Part shown: positions 41,284 through 53,075 of the stretch, in pieces
Layout: the number at the start of each line of letters is the position of its first letter
How positions within the stretch are numbered: the first letter of the stretch is position 1
Assembly: GCF_019145375.1 (NCBI RefSeq)
Contig: NZ_JAHSTX010000001.1
Span: forward strand, 2,765,001 to 2,829,000
Length of the DNA stretch: 64,000 nucleotides
Reading direction: 5' to 3'
Source of the DNA: Pseudomonas triticicola
GTDB taxonomy: Bacteria > Pseudomonadota > Gammaproteobacteria > Pseudomonadales > Pseudomonadaceae
Program-made: the position numbers and the translations under genes
Notes under the pieces: model-generated
Told to the model about the DNA's origin: nothing
The model's database searches: none
What the model saw: the letters and a program-made list of their open reading frames with translations, nothing else

Positions 41284-43413
41284 TCAGCCGTTGGGCCCTA
41301 CTGTCGCAACGATGGTCACTTGCTTGTTGTCCGGTACTTCCTGGTAGGCCAGTACATGCAGCCCTGGCACTGCGAGGCGGCCGAAGCGCGAGAGCATCGC
41401 GCGAATCGGGCCTGCTACCAGCAGGATCACCGGTTGGCCTTGCATTTCCTGACGCTGGGCCGCTTCGATCAACGAACGCTGCAGCTTCTCGGCCATGCTC
41501 GGCTCCAGCAGAACGCCCTCTTCCGAGCCTTGTCCTGCCTTCTGCAGACTATTGAGCAATATCTGTTCCAACCTTGGTTCCAATGTGATTACAGGCAGCT
41601 CGGACTCAGTGCCTACAATGCTTTGGACGATGGCGCGCGATACGCCGACCCGCACAGCGGCGACCAGCGCGGCGGTATCTTGACTCTTCGCGGCGTTGTT
41701 CGCGATCGCCTCGGCGATGCTGCGAATGTCGCGCACCGGCACGTGCTCGGCGAGCAGCGCTTGCAGAACCTTGAGCAACTGCGACAGCGAAACCACGCCC
41801 GGCACCAGCTCTTCAGCCAGTTTCGGCGAGCTCTTGGCCAGCAATTGCATGAGTTGCTGCACTTCCTCGTGGCCGATCAGCTCACTGGAGTGCTTGTACA
41901 GAATCTGGTTCAAGTGCGTGGCGACCACGGTGCTGGCGTCAACCACGGTATAGCCGAGCGATTGCGCCTGGGCACGCTGGCTGATTTCGATCCACACCGC
42001 CTCGAGGCCGAAAGCCGGATCTTTGGCGTTGATCCCGTTGAGCGAGCCGTACACCTGGCCCGGGTTGATCGCCAGTTCGCGATCCGGGTAGATCTCGGCC
42101 TCGGCGAGAATCACGCCCATCAGCGTCAGGCGGTAAGCGCTCGGCGCCAGATCGAGGTTGTCGCGGATGTGCACGGTCGGCATCAGGAAGCCCAGATCCT
42201 GCGAGAGCTTCTTGCGCACGCCCTTGATCCGCGCGAGCAATTGCCCACCCTGATTGCGGTCCACCAACGGGATCAGGCGATAGCCGACTTCGAGGCCGAT
42301 CATGTCGATCGGCGTCACGTCGTCCCAGCCCAGCTCCTTGGTTTCCATGGCGCGGGCCGGCGACGGCAGCAGTTCCTGCTGACGCTTGACCTCTTCCAGC
42401 GCCACGACCTTGGCAACGTTCTGCTTTTTCCAGAACAGGTATGCGCCGCCTGCGGCCAGCGCGGCCATGCTCAGGAACGAGAAGTGCGGCATGCCGGGCA
42501 CCAGGCCCATCACCGCCATCAAACCAGCGGCCACGGCCAGCGCTTTCGGCGAGGCGAACATCTGCCGGTTGATCTGCTTGCCCATGTCTTCCGAGCCGGA
42601 AGCACGGGTCACCATGATCGCCGCTGCTGTAGATAACAACAGTGATGGCAATTGCGCCACTAAACCGTCACCGATGGTCAGCAAGGCGTAAACCTTGCCC
42701 GCATCGCCGAAGCTCATGCCGTGCTGGAAGATACCGACCGCCATACCGCCGATGAGGTTGATGAACAGAATCAGCAGGCCGGCGATCGCGTCACCACGGA
42801 CGAACTTGCTGGCACCGTCCATCGAACCGTAGAACTCCGCCTCCTGGGCGACTTCCTGACGGCGCGACTTGGCTTGATTCTGGTCGATCAGGCCGGCGTT
42901 GAGGTCGGCGTCGATCGCCATTTGTTTGCCGGGCATCGCATCGAGGGTGAAACGCGCGCTCACCTCGGAAATTCGCCCGGCACCTTTGGTTACCACGACG
43001 AAGTTGATGATCATGAGGATCGCGAAAACCACGATACCGACCACGTAGTTACCGCCGATCACCACCTCACCGAAGGCCTGAATCACCTTACCGGCGGCGG
43101 CGTGGCCGTCCTGACCGTGGAGCATCACCACCCGCGTCGAGGCCACGTTCAAAGCCAGGCGCAGCAACGTTGCGACCAGCAGAATGGTCGGGAACACGGC
43201 GAAATCCAGCGGCCGCAGCGCATACACGCAGACCAGCAGGACGACGATGGACAGGGCAATGTTGAAGGTAAAGAAGACGTCGAGCAGGAACGGCGGTACC
43301 GGCAACATCATCATCGCCAGCATGACCAGCAGCAACAACGGCACGCCCAAATTGCCTCGACTGAGATCGGCAACGTTGGTGCGTGCTGTATTGAATAACT
43401 GAGTGCGATCCAC
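41284..43413 (-). CDS. flhA: flagellar export gate protein FlhA
   Basis: 709 residues. Eight membrane segments in the first 330 residues, with the FHIPEP-type signature MPGKQMAIDADLNAGLIDQN and RREVAQEAEFYGSMDGASKF. The large cytoplasmic domain binds export chaperones. Start codon GTG 43413, after AAAGGAACGGGGAAAACCG. It has a sigma-54 type promoter about 60 bases upstream. flhB, its usual neighbour, is displaced by the 8.5-kb island. Confidence 0.97.
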   Translation of the reverse strand: MDRTQLFNTARTNVADLSRGNLGVPLLLLVMLAMMMLPVPPFLLDVFFTFNIALSIVVLLVCVYALRPLDFAVFPTILLVATLLRLALNVASTRVVMLHGQDGHAAAGKVIQAFGEVVIGGNYVVGIVVFAILMIINFVVVTKGAGRISEVSARFTLDAMPGKQMAIDADLNAGLIDQNQAKSRRQEVAQEAEFYGSMDGASKFVRGDAIAGLLILFINLIGGMAVGIFQHGMSFGDAGKVYALLTIGDGLVAQLPSLLLSTAAAIMVTRASGSEDMGKQINRQMFASPKALAVAAGLMAVMGLVPGMPHFSFLSMAALAAGGAYLFWKKQNVAKVVALEEVKRQQELLPSPARAMETKELGWDDVTPIDMIGLEVGYRLIPLVDRNQGGQLLARIKGVRKKLSQDLGFLMPTVHIRDNLDLAPSAYRLTLMGVILAEAEIYPDRELAINPGQVYGSLNGINAKDPAFGLEAVWIEISQRAQAQSLGYTVVDASTVVATHLNQILYKHSSELIGHEEVQQLMQLLAKSSPKLAEELVPGVVSLSQLLKVLQALLAEHVPVRDIRSIAEAIANNAAKSQDTAALVAAVRVGVSRAIVQSIVGTESELPVITLEPRLEQILLNSLQKAGQGSEEGVLLEPSMAEKLQRSLIEAAQRQEMQGQPVILLVAGPIRAMLSRFGRLAVPGLHVLAYQEVPDNKQVTIVATVGPNG

Positions 43414-43490: not shown

Positions 43491-43554
43491 ACTTTTGCCG
43501 GGGAATGAAATAGAGCGGTTTTGCTTGTGATTGTCGGCTGATTGGGCTGGCCCC

Positions 43555-43644
43555 TTCGCGAGCAGGCTCGCTCCCACAGTTTGAAATGCATTCCCAATCG
43601 GACATTTGGAATACGGCCCCTGTGGGAGCGAGCCTGCTCGCGAA
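43555..43644. repeat. REP pair (BIME), copy 8
   Basis: Inverted REP units with about 42 bases between them, within the first long direct repeat and upstream of the structured leader. Confidence 0.9.
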
Positions 43645-43689
43645 GAGGCCATCGAATGCGGCGCATTTTTTCGATTTAAACGAAGCTGT

Positions 43690-44034
43690 TTAAAAGACAC
43701 CTGCAGACACGGTCTCAAGGCTACAAATCCTTGCGCCATTGCCTACAGCCAAGCCAGAATCCGCCGGCTTGTGCGCTTTGGGGTCGGGTTCTATTGTTGT
43801 CCGGTCGCTGACGAATCAGCGATCGGGTTTAGCGACTCGAACTCATGTCAAAGGTGCATCAGCGTTCCAGGCTTCGTTGCGGATCTGTATGTTCGCGATT
43901 TCGTCATGGTGGCTGTATGCGGGAGACCTTCGGGTCTGCCGGGTGCCTTTGACCGGTTCGCTAACCCGCGTACAGCCGCCACCCTTCCTGTTTAGCGACA
44001 GGTTGTAGCGGCTCCACTTCAAAGGAGCTTCACC
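43690..44034 (+). promoter_or_regulatory. structured leader region of DUF6124 gene, copy 1, with P4-immunity-like seqA/B/C layout
   Basis: About 345 bases, clearly conserved in copy 2. GTCGCTGA-CGAA-TCAGCGAT forms a hairpin at about 43804-43823. TTTAGCGAC occurs at 43828-43836 and again at 43991-43999, on either side of the C4-like RNA whose loop holds TCGCTAA (43958-43964), complementary to both. This is the layout of P4 CI: seqA, seqB inside the small RNA, seqC. It suggests control of the downstream gene by antisense-type pairing or attenuation. Confidence 0.6.
43908..43983 (+). ncRNA. C4-like antisense RNA element, copy 1
   Basis: 76 bases. A 16-pair outer stem (43908-43923 with 43965-43980), inner hairpin AGACC-TTCG-GGTCT (43924-43937), second short hairpin CCGG-N10-CCGG (43939-43956), then the unpaired TTCGCTAA. 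Size and shape match the C4 antisense RNA of phages P1/P7 (about 77 bases) as I remember the family. The three stem differences to copy 2 all keep pairing. Confidence 0.6.
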
Positions 44035-44394
44035 ATGATCAAACCAACACCCAACCCGCCCGAATCCGACCCCACCTCCCCCTACGAATCCCTCGATTCG
44101 AAAAAACTTCATCAAGCCGCCGATCGCGCCCTCGACCACTACCTCTGCCCACCCGGCTCCACCCCGCCACCCTTCAGCCCCCGCGCCATGTACGCCGTCA
44201 CCGCCGACACCAAAAACGAAGACCTGCTGGCCAACGCCTGCGAAACCCTCGCCTCGGCCAAAACCATCGCCCAGGAATTCGCCGGACTGGTCAAGCCATC
44301 GCAACGCCGAACATTGATGGGCATCGCACAACTGATCATGCTCGGAGAATTGGCGGTGAATCGGGTGCTGGATAATCTGGAATTGCCGCACTAG
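44035..44394 (+). CDS. DUF6124-type small protein, copy 1
   Basis: 119 residues: MIKPTPNPPESDPTSPYESL, a Pro-rich middle, then helical ANACETLASAKTIAQEFAGL and RRTLMGIAQLIMLGELAVNR. Soluble, no signal peptide. It matches what is annotated DUF6124 in pseudomonads; function unknown. AAAGGAGCTTCACC gives a strong ribosome binding site. Some 80% of positions match copy 2 (50946-51305) by eye. Its long, phage-immunity-like leader is unusual for so small a gene. Confidence 0.85.
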   Translation: MIKPTPNPPESDPTSPYESLDSKKLHQAADRALDHYLCPPGSTPPPFSPRAMYAVTADTKNEDLLANACETLASAKTIAQEFAGLVKPSQRRTLMGIAQLIMLGELAVNRVLDNLELPH

Positions 44395-44416: not shown

Positions 44417-44439
44417 GTGGGAGCGAGCCTGCTCGCGAA
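44417..44439. repeat. single REP unit
   Basis: One unpaired REP unit between the first DUF6124 gene and its terminator. It makes an ATG-less extension of the Ig-protein frame look open, which is why I do not use that start. Confidence 0.85.
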
Positions 44440-44467
44440 AGCTGACTTACAGGCAATATCTTCCCCC

Positions 44468-44512
44468 CAAAAAACCGCCGTTCCGAAGCAACCGGGACGG
44501 CAGTTTTTTTAT
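44468..44512 (+). terminator. terminator after DUF6124 copy 1
   Basis: AAAACCGCCGTTCC and GGGACGGCAGTTTTTTT form a stem with a T-run, about 75 bases after the DUF6124 stop and before the lux-box-like site. Confidence 0.8.
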
Positions 44513-44545
44513 TCACCCAATGACCATTCGTCGGAGACATGTCTT

Positions 44546-44567
44546 CACCTGTCAGATCTGACAGGTG
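44546..44567. promoter_or_regulatory. lux-box-like palindrome upstream of the Ig-repeat gene
   Basis: A perfect 22-base palindrome whose central 20 bases begin ACCTGTCAGA and end TCTGACAGGT. This keeps the ACCTGT...ACAGGT ends of the Vibrio lux box and the CT-N12-AG rule of Pseudomonas las/rhl boxes. It is centred 74 bases before ATG 44630, a position suited to a LuxR-type activator at about -42 of a promoter near 44588. No luxR or luxI gene is in the window. Confidence 0.65.
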
Positions 44568-44629
44568 CGCAACTTTCAATTATGCGCTCTGATACCCCCT
44601 GCACGTTCCCTCGCGCAGGAGCCTACTTC

Positions 44630-47600
44630 ATGATCACCTCAATCCCACCGGACAATACCGTCCTCGTCCTGAGCCCGCCGATGATCAACGGCCAGACCAC
44701 GCCTGTGGTAGGCGCACATATTGGCGTGCCTTTGGTGGCCTATGATCTGGTCACCGACGGAGAAGGCGCCGTTGTCCTCGTCGATCCACCGTTGGCGGGC
44801 ACCATGGATCCCGGCGATGTCATGGAGCTTTGGCTTGAGGGGGAGTCAGCTGCGCTGGACAGCGAAACAATTGTCGATCCGAACGTGCGCACCACGTTAC
44901 GCATTCCCAAGGGCCGACTGCATCCGGACCTGGTCAACAAGCTGTACTACACCGTTAGGCGCGGCAGCAGCAATATCGGCACTTTCACACCACCGCTGGA
45001 AATCCTCTACAACCGCATCCGCCCCGGGCTGAAGGATCGCCTGACCGACCCGGGTGGCCACTCCGAACTCAAGTTGCTATTGCCGGACGTGATCAAGAAC
45101 GGCGTCGGCCCGGACTTCGTCAGCGCCGAAGTGTGCGTGGCCTACCCGTATTGCAGGGCTTATGACGTCATCACCCTCAAGTGCAACGGCGAACTGCTGG
45201 AACCCAAGCCCAAGGTCAATCCGAATCAGGCGCCGCAACCGCCGAATCCCGGTGACGAACACCCCATCACCATTTGCTTCACCGTCACTCGCGTGTTTCT
45301 CGACAAGGCGAAACGGCTGGATAAAAAACTGCATTTTTCCTACACCGTCACCGACCAGATCGGCAACGGCCCGGATACTGTTGCGCCGTGGTCGCCGTTG
45401 CAGACGGTGGATGAGGATCTGGATGGCACTCGTCTGCCGATGCCGATCCTGCTGGAACGCCCGGAAGACTATCCCGGTGATGACGCGAGCATCATCGATC
45501 TGGAAAAACTCGCGGGTAATCCGCTGCTGCTGGTCGTCCTGACCACCGATAACCGTTTCGTCGTGGGCTACGACGTTATCGCGACCTATACCGCGACTAA
45601 CACGGGGCAACCTGTCGACGTAGTGGTGACTGTCCCCGGCAAAGTCGAAGCGGATCCGTTCGGAGTCAAAAAAACCCTGTTTCTTGAGGTAGCCAACGAC
45701 AAGATATTTGCGGCGAGCAACGTCACCGTCACCTACGAACTGCGCAAGCCTGATGGCGATCTTGTGGGAAGTTCCTACACGGCCAAAGCTGAGGTAAGCG
45801 ACACGGCCCCGATTGATCTGCAACCAGAAATCACCTCGGTAAAAGACTCCCTAAACAAAGAGATTCCACATAACGGTGGCACCGTCGATCCTCAGGTGAA
45901 GCTGACCGGTACTGCGACACCACGGCAGCGAGTCGAGGTTCTCGAGGGAAGTACCTCAAAAGGAAAATGGCCGGTCAATGCAGATGGCGAATGGACTTAC
46001 GAAACCACGTTGTCGGGCGTCGGAACTCGGACATTTACCGCGAAAGCAGACTACGGCACGGGGCAGGTCTCTGCAGACAGGACGTTCACCCTTTCGGATG
46101 CACTGACGCCTGTCATAGATTCGGTGAAGGACTCCGCAGGCGTGGAAATACCCAACAACGGGTTCACATCCGATACCGCCATCAAATTGAGCGGCACCGC
46201 CACACCGCGTCTGAAAGTCGAGATTTTTGATGGCGCTGTCTCGAGAGGCAGCGCGGAGGTGAATGGCAGCACCGGCAAATGGGAACTTGAGGTGACGGGA
46301 CTGACTCTCTCCACGCACAGCTTTACTGCCAAGGCGCTGTACGGTTCAGGTGCCGTGTCGGCCGCCAGAACACTGACCGTCACAGCCGCCACCGCCCCGA
46401 CATTGACCTCCGTGAAGGGCTCGCCCAGCGGTGTCGAAATCCCTCAAGGCGGGGTGACGGTGGAAACGGCCGTAATCCTGAGCGGTGTCGCTGCCAAGGG
46501 CCAGAAAATCAGGGTGCTTGACGGCACGACAGCCAAAGGTGAACCCACCGCCGACCCGGCAACCGGGATCTGGACGTTGACCGTCACCGGCCTGACGGTC
46601 GCCCCGCACAGTTTCACCGCCAAGGCGCTTTACGGTTCCGGCGCCGTATCGGCTGCCAGAACGCTGACAGTCGTGCAAATTCTTGTGCCCGAACTCCGCT
46701 TGATCACTGACTCAGCATCGATCGAGATTCCCAACAATGGTCAAACCACCCATACAACGATCATCTTGAGCGGGATTGCCACCCCGGGCACCGTGATTGA
46801 CCTGGTGAACTATGGTGCGCCTCTGCCCAACACCAACATTCAAGTCAATGCGCAAGGTACATGGACGTTTCAACTCACTGGACTCAGTGTCGGGACCACC
46901 TATAACTTGCGCGCCAGGCGCCAAGGGGGATCGGTTTCAAACGCCCGGAACGTGGTAGTCGTAGCCGCCACCGCTCCGACTTTGACATCGGTCAAAGGCT
47001 CTCCCAGCGGCGTCGAAATTCCCCAAGGCGGCAGCACCGTTGAAACAGCTGTCACCCTGAGCGGCGTCGCGGCCAAAGGCCAGAAAGTCGAAATCTTTGA
47101 CGGCACTGTCTCCAAAGGTCAGGCGACTGCACATGCCACAACCGGGGTCTGGACGTTGCTCGTCAGTGCCCTCACTGTGGCAGCACACAGCTTCAAGGCC
47201 AAGGCGTTGTATGGCACGGGTGCCGAGTCAGCGGTCAGGACGATGACCGTGACGGCCGCCACCGCCCCGACACTGACCTCCGTGAAGGGCTCGCCCAGCG
47301 GTGTCGAAATCCCTAACGCAGGTTTCACGGTAGAAACCGCCGTAAAGCTGTCCGGCGTCGCTGCCAAGGGTCAGCAAATCGAAGTGTTCGACGGTACAAC
47401 CTCAAAAGGCAAAGCGGCTGCCGATCGCACAACGGGCATATGGGAACTGCCGGTTACAGGTCTGAATGTTGCTGCGCACAGCTTCAAGGCCAAGGCGTTG
47501 TATGGCACAGGTGCCGAGTCAGCGGTCAGGACGATGACCGTGACGGCCGCCACCGCCCCGACATTGACCTCCGTGAAGGGCTCGCCCAGCGGTGTCGAAA

Positions 47601-50290
47601 TCCCTCAAGGCGGGGTGACGGTGGAAACGGCCGTAATCCTGAGCGGTGTCGCTGCCAAGGGCCAGAAAGTCAGGGTGCTTGACGGCACGACAGCCAAAGG
47701 TGAACCCACCGCCGACCCGGCAACCGGGATCTGGACGTTGACCGTCACCGGCCTGACGGTCGCCCCGCACAGTTTCACCGCCAAGGCGCTTTACGGTTCC
47801 GGCGCCGTATCGGCTGCCAGAACGCTGACAGTCGTGCAAATTCTTGTGCCCGAACTCCGCTTGATCACTGACTCAGCATCGATCGAGATTCCCAACAATG
47901 GTCAAACCACCCATACAACGATCATCTTGAGCGGGATTGCCACCCCGGGCACCGTGATTGACCTGGTGAACTATGGTGCGCCTCTGCCCAACACCAACAT
48001 TCAAGTCAATGCGCAAGGTACATGGACGTTTCAACTCACTGGACTCAGTGTCGGGACCACCTATAACTTGCGCGCCAGGCGCCAAGGGGGATCGGTTTCA
48101 AACGCCCGGAACGTGGTAGTCGTAGCCGCCACCGCTCCGACTTTGACATCGGTCAAAGGCTCTCCCAGCGGCGTCGAAATTCCCCAAGGCGGCAGCACCG
48201 TTGAAACAGCTGTCACCCTGAGCGGCGTCGCGGCCAAAGGCCAGAAAGTCGAAATCTTTGACGGCACTGTCTCCAAAGGTCAGGCGACTGCACATGCCAC
48301 AACCGGGGTCTGGACGTTGCTCGTCAGTGCCCTCACTGTGGCAGCACACAGCTTCAAGGCCAAGGCGTTGTATGGCACGGGTGCCGAGTCAGCGGTCAGG
48401 ACGATGACCGTGACGGCCGCCACCGCCCCGACACTGACCTCCGTGAAGGGCTCGCCCAGCGGTGTCGAAATCCCTAACGCAGGTTTCACGGTAGAAACCG
48501 CCGTAAAGCTGTCCGGCGTCGCTGCCAAGGGTCAGCAAATCGAAGTGTTCGACGGTACAACCTCAAAAGGCAAAGCGGCTGCCGATCGCACAACGGGCAT
48601 ATGGGAACTGCCGGTTACAGGTCTGAATGTTGCTGCGCACAGCTTCAAGGCCAAGGCGTTGTATGGCACAGGTGCCGAGTCAGCGGTCAGGACGATGACC
48701 GTGACGGCCGCCACCGCCCCGACATTGACCTCCGTGAAGGGCTCGCCCAGCGGTGTCGAAATCCCTCAAGGCGGGGTGACGGTGGAAACGGCCGTAATCC
48801 TGAGCGGTGTCGCTGCCAAGGGCCAGAAAGTCAGGGTGCTTGACGGCACGACAGCCAAAGGTGAACCCACCGCCGACCCGGCAACCGGGATCTGGACGTT
48901 GACCGTCACCGGCCTGACGGTCGCCCCGCACAGTTTCACCGCCAAGGCGCTTTACGGTTCCGGCGCCGTATCGGCTGCCAGAACGCTGACAGTCGTGCAA
49001 ATTCTTGTGCCCGAACTCCGCTTGATCACTGACTCAGCATCGATCGAGATTCCCAACAATGGTCAAACCACCCATACAACGATCATCTTGAGCGGGATTG
49101 CCACCCCGGGCACCGTGATTGACCTGGTGAACTATGGTGCGCCTCTGCCCAACACCAACATTCAAGTCAATGCGCAAGGTACATGGACGTTTCAACTCAC
49201 TGGACTCAGTGTCGGGACCACCTATAACTTGCGCGCCAGGCGCCAAGGGGGATCGGTTTCAAACGCCCGGAACGTGGTAGTCGTAGCCGCCACCGCTCCG
49301 ACTTTGACATCGGTCAAAGGCTCTCCCAGCGGCGTCGAAATTCCCCAAGGCGGCAGCACCGTTGAAACAGCTGTCACCCTGAGCGGCGTCGCGGCCAAAG
49401 GCCAGAAAGTCGAAATCTTTGACGGCACTGTCTCCAAAGGTCAGGCGACTGCACATGCCACAACCGGGGTCTGGACGTTGCTCGTCAGTGCCTTGGCTGT
49501 GGCAGCGCACAGCTTTACCGCCAAAGCTTTGTATGGGAGCAATCCTGTGTCGGCAGCACGGACCTTCACCGTGGCAGTGGCGACGGCCCCAACCATAGCC
49601 TCTGTCAAAGGGACTCTCAGCGGCAGGGAAATTCCGAAGGGCGGGACAACAGCCGAACTGGCGGTGACCCTCAGAGGCATCGCTGCCAAAGGACTAAAAG
49701 TCGAGGTTTTCGATCATGCAGTGCTCCAACGTGAAGCAACCGTCGATGGTGCCACTGGTGAGTGGACCATTAACGTAAATGGTCTCGGCAGGGTAGAACA
49801 CAGTTTCAAAGTAAAAGCACTATATGGAACGAGGCCAGAGTCAGCGCCTTGGAACTTTACAGTTCTTAAAGCCATACATATTCCACAGGGACGGCTATTA
49901 ATCGGCCAGTCTATAAGTACTGAAACGTGTAGGATTACGTTTTTGCATCAAAATCAAGTGAACTGTTATATAAACTGCGAGCATTGGAGAATCTTTCCGT
50001 ATGTGCCCTACTCGCCAGGATCAATTACATATCAACTCGACTTTATTGGCCAAACGACAGAGCGAGTAAATCTCAAGGCCAATGGGGGGAACATTTCAGG
50101 GCTAACGACTATCACCTTTGATTTTCTTAATTCATCCGGAGCAACGATGGGCACCATAAGTAAGACTATTAACAGGGGGGCGGAGTACCATTTAATTGAT
50201 TCAGGAAGACTACCTGGGATTGCGTCGGTAAGGATAACTGTAACCGGCCAAATTTATATTACTAATTGGGAGTTTGGCAAGGTGCCATAG
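44630..50290 (+). CDS. giant Ig-like-repeat protein with unique C-terminal tip
   Basis: 1886 residues from ATG 44630, chosen because AGGAG lies 8 bases before it and because a longer frame would run through the lux-box-like site, terminator and a REP. Residues 1 to about 400 form a unique N-terminal region without signal peptide. Then come 14 bacterial Ig-like domains of about 97 residues (pattern [16 protein letters not shown]...FDGTxSKG...HSFxAKALYG). They are arranged as d1, d2, ABCD, ABCD, ABC', d14; each ABCD unit is 387 residues. The last ~140 residues ([20 protein letters not shown] onward) are unrelated and AT-rich. It resembles large adhesin or toxin-delivery proteins, but the export route and role are unknown. 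Confidence 0.88.
46387..47547 (+). repeat. 1161-base tandem repeat, unit 1
   Basis: Encodes Ig-like domains A-B-C-D. It differs from unit 2 by very little; the visible change is ATC to GTC in GQK(I/V)RV near 46508. Boundaries are set at the start of ACCGCCCCGACATTGACCTC-type sequence and are approximate. Confidence 0.9.
47548..48708 (+). repeat. 1161-base tandem repeat, unit 2
   Basis: Encodes domains A-B-C-D, and looks identical to unit 3 over their common length by eye. Near-identity at third codon positions means recent duplication or ongoing homogenisation. Confidence 0.9.
48709..49490 (+). repeat. 1161-base tandem repeat, partial unit 3
   Basis: Domains A-B and most of C. Identity to unit 2 stops near 49490, inside domain C, where [11 protein letters not shown] becomes [11 protein letters not shown]. 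From there the sequence enters the diverged domain 14. Confidence 0.88.
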
Positions 50291-50467: not shown

Positions 50468-50555
50468 TTCGCGAGCGGGCTCGCTCCCACAAAGAAATGC
50501 ACTCCCAATGTGTGAGTGGAATGCAATTCAACTGTGAGAGCGAGCTTGCTCGCGA
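50468..50555. repeat. REP pair (BIME), copy 9, diverged
   Basis: Inverted REP units with changes (TTCGCGAGCGGGCTCGCTCC; GTGAGAGCGAGCTTGCTCGC). It corresponds to the pair at 43555-43644. Confidence 0.85.
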
Positions 50556-50814
50556 AGGGGCCAGTGAAGTCAGCGCAAATCGCCTTTTAAACTCAGGCGT
50601 TTAAACGACACCTTCAGATACGCCTTTCAGGCTACAAATTCTTGCGCCATTGCCTACAGCTACGCCAGAATCCGCCGGCTTGTGCGCTTTGGGGTCGGGT
50701 TCTATTGTGGGTCGGTCGCTGACGAATCAGCGATCGGGTTTAGCGACCCGGACCATCTCAGTGCATCAGCGTTCGTGGCTTCGTTGTGGGATTTTTCGCC
50801 CGCAATTACGTTAT

Positions 50815-50891
50815 GGCGGCTGTATGCGGGAGACCTTTGGGTCTACCGGGGTGCCTGTGACCGGTTCGCTAACCTGCGTACAGCTGCCACC
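50815..50891 (+). ncRNA. C4-like antisense RNA element, copy 2
   Basis: 77 bases. Outer stem 50815-50830 with 50873-50888, inner hairpin AGACC-TTTG-GGTCT, second hairpin CCGG-N-CCGG, unpaired TTCGCTAA. Compared with copy 1, T to C in the left arm (U-G to C-G) and two C to T changes in the right arm (G-C to G-U) preserve the stem. Confidence 0.6.
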
Positions 50892-50945
50892 TTCACTTGT
50901 TTAGCGACAGGGAAAGAGTGGCTCCATAACCTCAGGAGCTTCACC

Positions 50946-51305
50946 ATGATCAAACCAACACCCAACCCACCCGAAACCGACCTCGCCTCCCCCTACGAAT
51001 CCCTCGATTCCAAAAAGCTCAACGACGCCGCCGAACGCGCGCTCGACCATTACCTCTGCCCACCCGGCCCCACGCCACCGCCACGCAAAACCCGCCGGAT
51101 GTACGCCGTTACCGCCGACTTCAAAAACGAGGAGCTGCTGGCCGATGCCAGCGAAACGCTCGCTTCTGCCAGAACCATCGCCCATGACTTCGCCCATCTC
51201 ATCCCCGCGTCGCAGCGCAGGACGCTGTTGGGGATTGCGCAACTGATTATGCTCGGAGAACTGGCGGTGAATCGGGTGATGGATAATCTGGATTTGCCGC
51301 AGTAG
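50946..51305 (+). CDS. DUF6124-type small protein, copy 2
   Basis: 119 residues, paralogue of 44035-44394: MIKPTPNPPETDLASPYESL, ADASETLASARTIAHDFAHL, RRTLLGIAQLIMLGELAVNR. CAGGAGCTTCACC precedes the ATG. The reading frame is open upstream into the leader, but the start is fixed by the paralogue and the ribosome binding site. Confidence 0.85.
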   Translation: MIKPTPNPPETDLASPYESLDSKKLNDAAERALDHYLCPPGPTPPPRKTRRMYAVTADFKNEELLADASETLASARTIAHDFAHLIPASQRRTLLGIAQLIMLGELAVNRVMDNLDLPQ

Positions 51306-51352
51306 CACGGTTGTGTGACGAGCCTTGAGTGAGGGGGCGTGGCTGCTGACGT

Positions 51353-51445
51353 CTTCGCGGGCAAGCCCGCTCCCACACGGATCTGCGCCGTTCACAAATC
51401 CCTGATCCACAGACGAACATGTGGGAGCAGGCTTGCTTCTGGCGG
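51353..51445. repeat. REP-like pair of another subtype
   Basis: CTTCGCGGGCAAGCCCGCTC then CCACA, and GTGGGAGCAGGCTTGCTTCTG further on, form an imperfect inverted pair. Different core (GGGCAAGCCC) from the other REPs in this window. Confidence 0.7.
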
Positions 51446-51935: not shown

Positions 51936-53075
51936 TCAAGAATCCCGACGCAAATCCGGCGGAATCGGCAAATCATCCTTCAACGGATCCGGCCGTTTGC
52001 CCTTGCCCGCCTGATGCTGGCGGATCTGGTAGACGTACGCCAGCACCTGCGCCACCGCCAGATACAGCCCGCCAGGAATTTCCTGCTCAAGCTCAGTTGA
52101 GTAATAGATTGAGCGCGCCAGCGCGGGCGATTCAAGCAGCATGACGTTGTTGGCCACTGCGATTTCGCGGATTTTCAGGGCGATGAAATCGCTGCCCTTG
52201 GCCAGTAGCACCGGCGCGCCGCCCTTTTCCGAGTCGTATTTGAGTGCGACGGCGTAGTGGGTCGGGTTGGTGATGACCACGTCGGCTTCGGGAATCGCCG
52301 CCATCATCCGGCGTTGCGACATTTCGCGCTGGGTCTGGCGGATGCGTTGTTTGACCTCCGGGCGGCCTTCCTGATCCTTGTGCTCGTCGCGTACTTCCTG
52401 CTTGGTCATCAGCAGTTTCTTGTGCGCTTCCCAGAGCTGCACCGGCACGTCGACGGCCGCGATGATGATCAGGCCGCAGGCCAGCCACAGGGTGCTCCAG
52501 CCCACCAGCAAGACGCTGTGAATGATCGCCATGTCCAGTGGCTCGTGGGCAATGCGCAGAAAGTCATCGACGTCGGCGGACAGCACCACCAGCGCCACGC
52601 CCAGGGTAATCAGAAATTTCGCCAGGGCCTTGAGCAGTTCGACCACAGCCTTGAACGAAAACATGCGCTTGATGCCGGCTGCCGGGTTCATCCGGCTGAA
52701 TTTGGGCGCCAGCGACTTTGCGGCAAACAGCCAGCCACCGAGAGAGATCGGCCCGATGATGGCGGCGAGCAACAGCGTGATCATCACCGGCTGAATCGCC
52801 AGCAACGCGATCAGGCCCGACTCCAGCAAGAATCGGCCCATGGCGCCTTGATCCATGACCACTTCGCGGGACAGGGTGAAGTTCAGGCGCATCACGTCCA
52901 TCATTTCTTGCGCGAGCATGCCGCCGAAGATCAGCAGCGCAGAGGCACCGGCCATCATCACGGCCAGAGTGTTGAGCTCTTTGGAGCGGGCAATCTCACC
53001 CTTCTCACGGGAGTCCTTTTTGCGTTTCTCCGTGGGGTCTTCTGTTTTGTCCTGACCGCTTTCGCTCTCTGCCAT
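51936..53075 (-). CDS. flhB: flagellar export switch protein FlhB
   Basis: 379 residues. Four membrane segments, then the cytoplasmic domain with the self-cleavage motif NPTH in ADVVITNPTHYAVALKYD. It changes export specificity from hook to filament under FliK control. The polar C-terminal tail (GKGKRPDPLKDDLPIPPDL) is typical for Pseudomonas. Last gene of the fliL operon. Confidence 0.97.
   Translation of the reverse strand: MAESESGQDKTEDPTEKRKKDSREKGEIARSKELNTLAVMMAGASALLIFGGMLAQEMMDVMRLNFTLSREVVMDQGAMGRFLLESGLIALLAIQPVMITLLLAAIIGPISLGGWLFAAKSLAPKFSRMNPAAGIKRMFSFKAVVELLKALAKFLITLGVALVVLSADVDDFLRIAHEPLDMAIIHSVLLVGWSTLWLACGLIIIAAVDVPVQLWEAHKKLLMTKQEVRDEHKDQEGRPEVKQRIRQTQREMSQRRMMAAIPEADVVITNPTHYAVALKYDSEKGGAPVLLAKGSDFIALKIREIAVANNVMLLESPALARSIYYSTELEQEIPGGLYLAVAQVLAYVYQIRQHQAGKGKRPDPLKDDLPIPPDLRRDS

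Follow-up and report, generated by a model that had tools for sequence, protein, structure and literature searches.

In Pseudomonas triticicola, a window of 64,000 nucleotides (nt), by which is meant the whole stretch of DNA that was analysed, carries two cassettes in the gap between two genes which we take to be flhA (41284-43413) and flhB (51936-53075). Each cassette consists of a leader with a C4 antisense RNA, followed by a gene for a DUF6124 protein of 119 amino acids, and the second C4 leader lies 6.9 kb from the first. The only matches above the Rfam cut-offs in the 64 kb are two C4 and two c4-a1b1 elements. A sequence-only reading of the first leader had described a C4-like folded element placed between two copies of TTTAGCGAC (43828-43836 and 43991-43999), with the junction stretch TCGCTAA complementary to both. 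This description is confirmed by the matches to RF01695 and RF03163 and by the fold, and both leaders score above the cut-off of the Rfam C4 model (Table 1). The first C4 is predicted to fold with -48 kcal/mol (z -5.4, with none of 200 shuffles as good), and both recognition loops remain unpaired.

The elements are named here after the P1 record AF234172, where a' stands for the junction loop of 7 nt and b' for the apical loop, and they follow the order a1-b1-C4-a2-b2, as in phage P1. In both cassettes, the junction loop is complementary to a1 and to a2 over its full length (7 of 7 nt at each site). The pairing scheme of the earlier reading was right as far as this loop is concerned; it was incomplete in that a second pairing, by the apical loop, had been missed. 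In the first cassette, that loop (GTGCCTTTGA) is complementary to b1 upstream and to b2, which overlaps the Shine-Dalgarno sequence. Chance can be excluded because of the model scores and of the genome-wide test of own-leader matching described below.

Table 1. Features of the first cassette (43769-44394) and the second cassette (50702-51305), in window coordinates
Feature	Position	Strand	Basis
Candidate promoter-like TTGTGC-N17-TATTGT, immediately before the a1b1 hairpin	43769-43797	+	pattern
c4-a1b1 upstream target region, two hairpins	43791-43843	+	RF03163, 52.5 bits, cut-off 46.7
a1 site TTAGCGA, complement of junction loop	43829-43835	+	7 nt exact
b1 site TCAAAGG, complement of apical loop	43848-43854	+	7 nt exact
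C4 antisense RNA	43902-43986	+	RF01695, 82.3 bits, cut-off 45, E 1.3e-14
C4 hairpin 2, apical loop (called b' in P1)	43943-43952	+	unpaired in fold; complement of b1 and b2
C4 junction loop (a' in P1 naming), TCGCTAA	43958-43964	+	unpaired in fold; complement of a1 and a2
a2 site TTAGCGA	43992-43998	+	7 nt exact
b2 site TCAAAGG, overlapping Shine-Dalgarno AAAGGAG	44019-44025	+	7 nt exact; start codon at 44035
DUF6124 protein, 119 amino acids	44035-44394	+	PF19619, 67.8 bits, cut-off 27
c4-a1b1, second cassette (a1 at 50740-50746)	50702-50754	+	RF03163, 56.0 bits, cut-off 46.7
C4 RNA, second cassette	50809-50894	+	RF01695, 72.7 bits, cut-off 45
Apical loop, second cassette (own pairing weak)	50850-50860	+	loop comparison
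Junction loop, second cassette	50866-50872	+	loop comparison
a2 site, second cassette	50901-50907	+	7 nt exact
DUF6124 protein, second cassette, 119 amino acids	50946-51305	+	PF19619, 69.3 bits

The scale of the phenomenon goes beyond what the sequence-only reading had described; the element is real, and it is one of 25 such units in the 5.82 Mb genome. All 25 C4s are over the cut-off, and they are accompanied by 27 c4-a1b1 matches (12 over cut-off) and 27 DUF6124 matches. A c4-a1b1 match is present upstream of 24 of the 25 C4s. One C4 is followed by a DUF3077 gene and another by a gene for a protein with no Pfam match. Among the 25 paralogues, two-sided changes are seen in 13 of the 23 predicted stem pairs. 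A promoter-like pattern, ending before the a1b1 hairpin, is found in 21 of the 25 cassettes as compared with a mean of 0.27 and a maximum of 4 in 200 mononucleotide shuffles, the pattern having been composed after inspection of these same leaders. Its position would fit a single transcript that runs through a1b1, C4, a2b2 and the gene.

The two loops may be regarded as an address, and 24 distinct addresses exist among the 25 C4s. For every C4, the longest exact complement of each loop was scored in every leader. The own leader was the best or tied for 25 of 25 C4s in the pairing a'/a1, for 22 in a'/a2, for 16 in b'/b1 and for 18 in b'/b2. The mean own-leader complementarity was reached in none of 20000 permutations for any of the four pairings, by this score or by duplex energy. 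A joint threshold was passed by 18 of 25 own pairs upstream and 22 of 25 downstream, as against 7 and 9 of the 600 non-own pairs, respectively; cross-talk between cassettes is thus predicted to be rare. In the own genome, the apical loop finds a mean complement of 3.7-4.0 nt in windows of equal length inside the gene, compared with 6.8 nt in the leader. With phage P1 as a positive control, the runs found by the same procedure begin at the a1, b1, a2 and b2 sites of the annotation; with P4, they are 9 and 7 nt long downstream and only 5 and 4 nt upstream. These results refer to the loops alone against narrow windows. Duplex energies that included the loop flanks were also tried and gave a clear own-target signal in only one of the four pairings, because the shared GC stems dominate.

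The pattern was also seen in other members of the genus. From at least 536 confirmed DUF6124 matches, 80 were taken up, of which 79 are loci from named Pseudomonas genomes. At 77 of these 79, a C4 lies 46-58 nt upstream of the start of the match; the two without are L088 and L097, the latter having only 130 nt of upstream sequence. When the own genome and the named loci were pooled, 102 cassettes, less three without an anchor, left 99 with 47 unique addresses. Here the own leader was best or tied for 47 (a'/a1), 43 (a'/a2), 32 (b'/b1) and 37 (b'/b2), and again none of 20000 permutations reached the mean. Three more genomes hold 35, 47 and 26 C4s over cut-off, with 34, 47 and 26 distinct addresses; one sub-threshold C4 match each was excluded in G010 and G127. 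Taken separately, none of the four genomes had a permutation among 10000 that reached the own-leader mean in any of the four pairings. In G127, the own leader was best in a'/a1 for only 13 of 26, the position anchor having been located in only 13 of 26. A product that begins with a motif of the type [TVI]P[ND]PP follows the C4 in 23 of 25, 25 of 35, 35 of 47 and 16 of 26 cassettes of the four genomes. By these comparisons, matching to the own leader is a general pattern.

The address changes even where the protein does not. The first cassette of the window (L002) and three others of the same genome (L015, L016 and L022) encode proteins that are 97-98% identical under different addresses, and their apical loops are 30-54% identical, except for L015 and L016 (89%). 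Nonsynonymous divergence (dN) among the four is 0.008-0.013 and synonymous divergence (dS) 0.25-0.47, so that the coding sequences show strong purifying selection on the DUF6124 protein in spite of the changing address. A wider comparison used the 173 of 210 cassettes with the motif and a readable gene, in pairs of at least 85% coding identity; an address was taken as common to a pair if the apical loops were within two edits and the junction loops identical. A common address was found in 2 of 47 same-genome pairs and in 94 of 476 different-genome pairs (Fisher p 0.005, on pairs that are non-independent and include orthologues).

Orthologues were then redefined as cassettes of different genomes with both flanks matching (at least 80% over at least 250 nt), among 194 cassettes. 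Of the 26 orthologous pairs, 6 have the same address and 20 differ, with loop and target changing together. The pairs come from 10 chromosomal sites, and every site shows at least one address change; the sample is therefore small and gives no genus-wide rate. Per-site means of the own b'/b2 match exceed those of the cross match at 10 of 10 sites (7.35 vs 4.33 nt), while two single pairs, L041/L060 and L102/L107, are mixed. In L018 and L296, whose flanks are 95-96% identical, only 3 of 13 positions of b1, 5 of 11 of b' and 8 of 18 of b2 are identical, compared with 265 of 292 elsewhere. Each allele pairs with itself, and the promoter spacer and the a2 hairpin are also somewhat different. The alleles L022 and L033 (flanks 97-99%) show many differences from b1 to b2, which looks like recombination. 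Thus, the covariation proposed as a check by the earlier reading is present both in the C4 stems and in the loop-target pairs, and together with the model matches it supports an architecture of the C4 and P4 CI type.

Several observations weigh against such private matching. By longest match, the apical-loop counts (16 and 18 of 25) are far from complete, and by duplex energy the counts are lower still (a'/a1 22, a'/a2 20, b'/b1 13 and b'/b2 13 of 25). In G062, the own leader is best or tied for the apical loop in 22 (b'/b1) and 35 (b'/b2) of 47. The own match of the apical loop is weak in the second cassette of the window and in some others. In that second cassette, the complement is 3 nt upstream and 4 nt at the Shine-Dalgarno sequence; a 5-nt downstream run adjoins a2, and in the related locus L032 the loop differs by one base and has a 6-nt match by eye. 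The cassettes L010 and L023 have one common address. In the switched pair L041/L060, the loop fits the other allele better (7 vs 4 nt). With regard to early termination before 44035, a conserved hairpin in the stretch from b1 to C4 was also considered; only 7 of the 25 own leaders have one whose end lies no more than 6 nt from the 5' end of C4, so that it is not a general feature.

Two structural devices of the leaders were also considered. A hairpin CTCC-N-GGAG hiding the Shine-Dalgarno sequence occurs in 10 of 25, 12 of 30, 14 of 43 and 6 of 19 cassettes, and a perfect stem of 4 bp closes a loop containing a2 in 5 of 25, 7 of 35, 13 of 47 and 8 of 26; neither is general. In both L010 and L023, two tandem DUF6124 genes stand behind one C4. 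Elements of the c4-a1b1 kind, below cut-off and with no C4 match nearby, are seen at L026:669-721, L027:881-933 and L028:805-855; they could be either decayed units or targets in trans. By eye, L030 has a shortened C4 region. L029 has a DUF6124 gene with no C4 (domain match 676-864), beside a PrrF RNA (460-607).

The DUF6124 product is predicted to have three helices (mean predicted local distance difference test score, pLDDT, 79.3; predicted template modelling score, pTM, 0.47). No solved structure was found by sequence, and no fold match to the PDB or to viral models at E up to 0.001. The gene downstream in the window is DUF6124 and not icd-ant, with no PHROG match at E up to 1, and three cassette products gave no match to the PADLOC anti-phage families at E up to 1. 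In a genus sample of 149 genomes, C4 over cut-off is present in 137 (listed counts up to at least 27) and DUF6124 in 117 (up to at least 38). The copy numbers of the two, as counted among the matches listed, are correlated (Spearman 0.87). The 11 genomes with no C4 match have no DUF6124 match, and 20 genomes have C4 without DUF6124. Eight genomes rich in C4 and poor in DUF6124 have 8-22 DUF3077 matches, and all 11 genomes lacking C4 have none; the families DUF6124 and DUF3077 overlap weakly. In a class sample of 369 genomes, which includes the own genome, C4 is found in 24 and DUF6124 in one, the own.

The RNA family, the architecture, the complementarity of two loops, the insulation of the cassettes, the concerted turnover of loops and targets and the purifying selection on the product are evident from the sequences themselves. 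The units are probably self-silencing and insulated antisense cassettes related to P1 C4 and P4 CI. We infer the start of transcription, the processing, the repression and the termination as follows. A single promoter would start a transcript that contains a1, b1, C4, a2, b2 (the last on the ribosome-binding site) and the DUF6124 frame. The C4 would be cut out of this leader transcript, presumably by RNase P and as an RNA of about 77 nt if it behaves as other C4 RNAs do. Each of its two loops would then find its own partners, so that a1/b1 and a2/b2 are bound on transcripts of the same cassette type. Wherever a matching C4 is present, the translation of DUF6124 would be shut down, and so would the transcription of the gene, by analogy with P1 and P4. 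In P1 (by its annotation, by Weiss et al. and reportedly by Citron and Schuster) and in P4, pairing of the C4 type blocks translation at b2 and favours termination. Since nearly all addresses differ within the genome, each cassette would mostly silence only itself, in the manner of the heteroimmune P1 and P7. Addresses change by joint alteration of loop and targets, also where the chromosomal position is the same. As for the earlier interpretation, a domesticated switch that controls a chromosomal DUF6124 gene is a well-supported inference, while the shield against phages that it offered as an option is weak, as discussed below.

The units share with the C4 of P1 and P7 (RF01695) the RNA fold, the order of elements, the pairing by two loops and the position of the second pairing at the ribosome-binding site, as given in the P1 annotation. 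The target, however, is a DUF6124 gene or a DUF3077 relative, whereas in P1 it is icd-ant with the antirepressor ant. Moreover, each of the four genomes examined holds 25 to 47 copies, with nearly all addresses different and with alleles that differ in address. As cited from Citron and Schuster in the available text of Weiss et al. (PMC5320573), the specificity of P1 and P7 is set by loop changes. In the P4 CI system (seqA, seqB, seqC), the antisense RNA lies between two target regions and the replication genes are controlled by transcription termination, according to the accessible parts of the literature. When a model is made from the 25 own C4s, the P4 leader scores 48.5 bits against it; the early termination known from P4 is a prediction for the cassettes here. 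A parallel comes from the Acinetobacter baumannii chromosome, in which Weiss et al. (2016; PMC5320573) describe, in the text available, 21 C4-like small RNAs (Group 1) with variable loops, regard them, as far as they know, as the first group of that size within a single genome, and suggest from read coverage that Group 1 is processed at a GGW motif. Both are thus large C4-like families with variable loops in one chromosome; no targets are named in the available portions of that paper, whereas here there are matching own-leader targets and a defined downstream protein family. A further relative could be the IsrK-orf45-anrP leader of Gifsy-1 (PMC4825925), as the isrK model (RF01394) overlaps 43804-43878 with 24.4 bits, below its cut-off of 50. 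In the excerpts at hand, Weinberg et al. (2010) list C4 in Proteobacteria and phages, and a 2025 review treats it as a regulator of phages P1 and P7. A literature search on 'DUF6124' found no paper, and one on 'DUF3077' found a single paper, on furfural tolerance, as far as its available text goes. In the accessible text of the literature on C4 with Pseudomonas, no account of such cassettes was found, and a description elsewhere is possible.

A further-reaching explanation is that the cassettes are elements of the zygotic induction or incompatibility type, whose DUF6124 is silent with a matching C4 and expressed on entry into a naive cell. The allelic address differences at 10 sites and the near-identical products under different addresses are consistent with it, and so is the mixed occupancy of the flhA-flhB gap. 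Among 12 relatives of the same genus, 10 have no DUF6124 match there, and the spacing is 197-257 bp in 7. A relative with 97% identical FlhA has a single cassette of 87% identity over 727 bp, the address of which is almost unchanged (one base of the apical loop differs), and in the relative G004 there is a stretch resembling C4 together with a weak match to DUF6124. Cassettes thus come and go at a site. Of the 80 loci on contigs classed as viral, 26 also have DUF6124 next to a C4, be it as a phage gene or in host flank. However, no mobility genes or defined ends are seen at the site, and a search with one query gave DUF6124 in 1 of 50,697 phage records, where it stands at the record edge, and in 0 of 72,556 plasmid records. 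Also, the loops of same-genome paralogues and of loosely defined orthologues do not differ significantly in divergence (p 0.085). We regard this explanation as doubtful, though a sizeable chance is left to it. If it were true, new addresses would be favoured. With similar reserve, one may imagine a heteroimmunity system of Pseudomonas chromosomes, made up of dozens of cassettes whose alleles at a given site switch address by joint change of loop and targets, in which private two-loop addresses release DUF6124 or DUF3077 only in a cell with no matching C4, and so label self and non-self, or incompatibility types, among strains. Address diversification in the self-silencing cassettes may be driven by the avoidance of cross-silencing after duplication, by recombination between cassettes, or by heteroimmunity selection on cell entry; the above comparison of paralogues and loose orthologues did not separate the three.

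Another proposal is that the chromosomal C4s confer immunity in trans, acting on the transcripts of phages with the same target sites; in the available text of their paper, Weiss et al. (2016; PMC5320573) raise this idea for Acinetobacter. Contigs classed as viral do carry C4 cassettes with other products. A scan of such contigs with one 18-base pattern gave at least 120 stretches, of which 80 among those listed were analysed (L110-L189); downstream of the C4 cassettes there, various small proteins are encoded, some of which resemble DUF3077 by eye. Of 88 C4 matches, 82 were examined (six weak or cut ones were excluded), 31 with DUF6124 and 51 without. One of the 51 leaders without DUF6124, that of L185, is matched by the own-genome C4 L011 (7 and 8 nt at a1/b1, 7 and 6 nt at a2/b2), but the other 50 lack a match of 7 nt or more in both loops. 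When 6 nt per loop are enough, 28 of the 51 find a match somewhere; in 30 rounds with shuffled loops, the mean was 10.2 and the maximum 26. Four junction-loop classes are common to the 19 chromosomal and the 16 viral ones, and the class is also viral for 22 of 99 cassettes with the motif product in the four genomes and for 15 of 34 other cassettes. Against this, immunity in trans does not need a general matching to the own leader, and the phage sample is limited to the 80 loci found with that one pattern. Recognition of some phages by the own C4s is possible and is not the general pattern; as an account of the cassettes as a whole, immunity in trans appears improbable. Last, the idea of a neutral leftover, that is, of decaying prophage immunity regions spread by duplication and with no present function, has some decayed units in its favour (the orphan a1b1 elements and the shortened C4 noted above), but is hardly credible in view of the strong purifying selection on the protein, the compensated changes of loop and target, the promoter-like pattern and the correlated copy numbers.

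The surroundings of the two cassettes hold some other features. The stretch 44417-50290 between them is an open frame of 1957 amino acids with immunoglobulin (Ig)-like repeats (Big_3_5), and no match to this gene was found in the flhA-flhB regions of the 12 relatives. Palindromes resembling repetitive extragenic palindromic (REP) sequences are seen by eye around both cassettes, at 43549-43640, 44418-44440, 50470-50560 and 51340-51440. In 5 of the 25 own-genome cassettes, including both in the window (43667-43690 and 50582-50605), a TTTAAA-N-TTTAAA dyad precedes the a1b1 hairpin by about 127 nt, and a half-site GTTTAAA or TTTAAAC is present at -112 to -115 in 15 of 25; these are perhaps the site of a regulator or the edge of the unit. 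A conserved block at 43725-43768, ending in CAGAATCCGCCGG upstream of the -35 box, recurs by eye in 16 of 25 cassettes, and some of the others have another conserved sequence in common.

Likely targets of chromosomal C4 RNAs have been identified here, along with 24 to 47 distinct antisense addresses per genome. The compensated differences between natural alleles make the rules of loop-loop antisense specificity directly testable, and they offer a large natural set of orthogonal RNA repressors. They also raise the question of why the small DUF6124 family should be kept under so many private locks.
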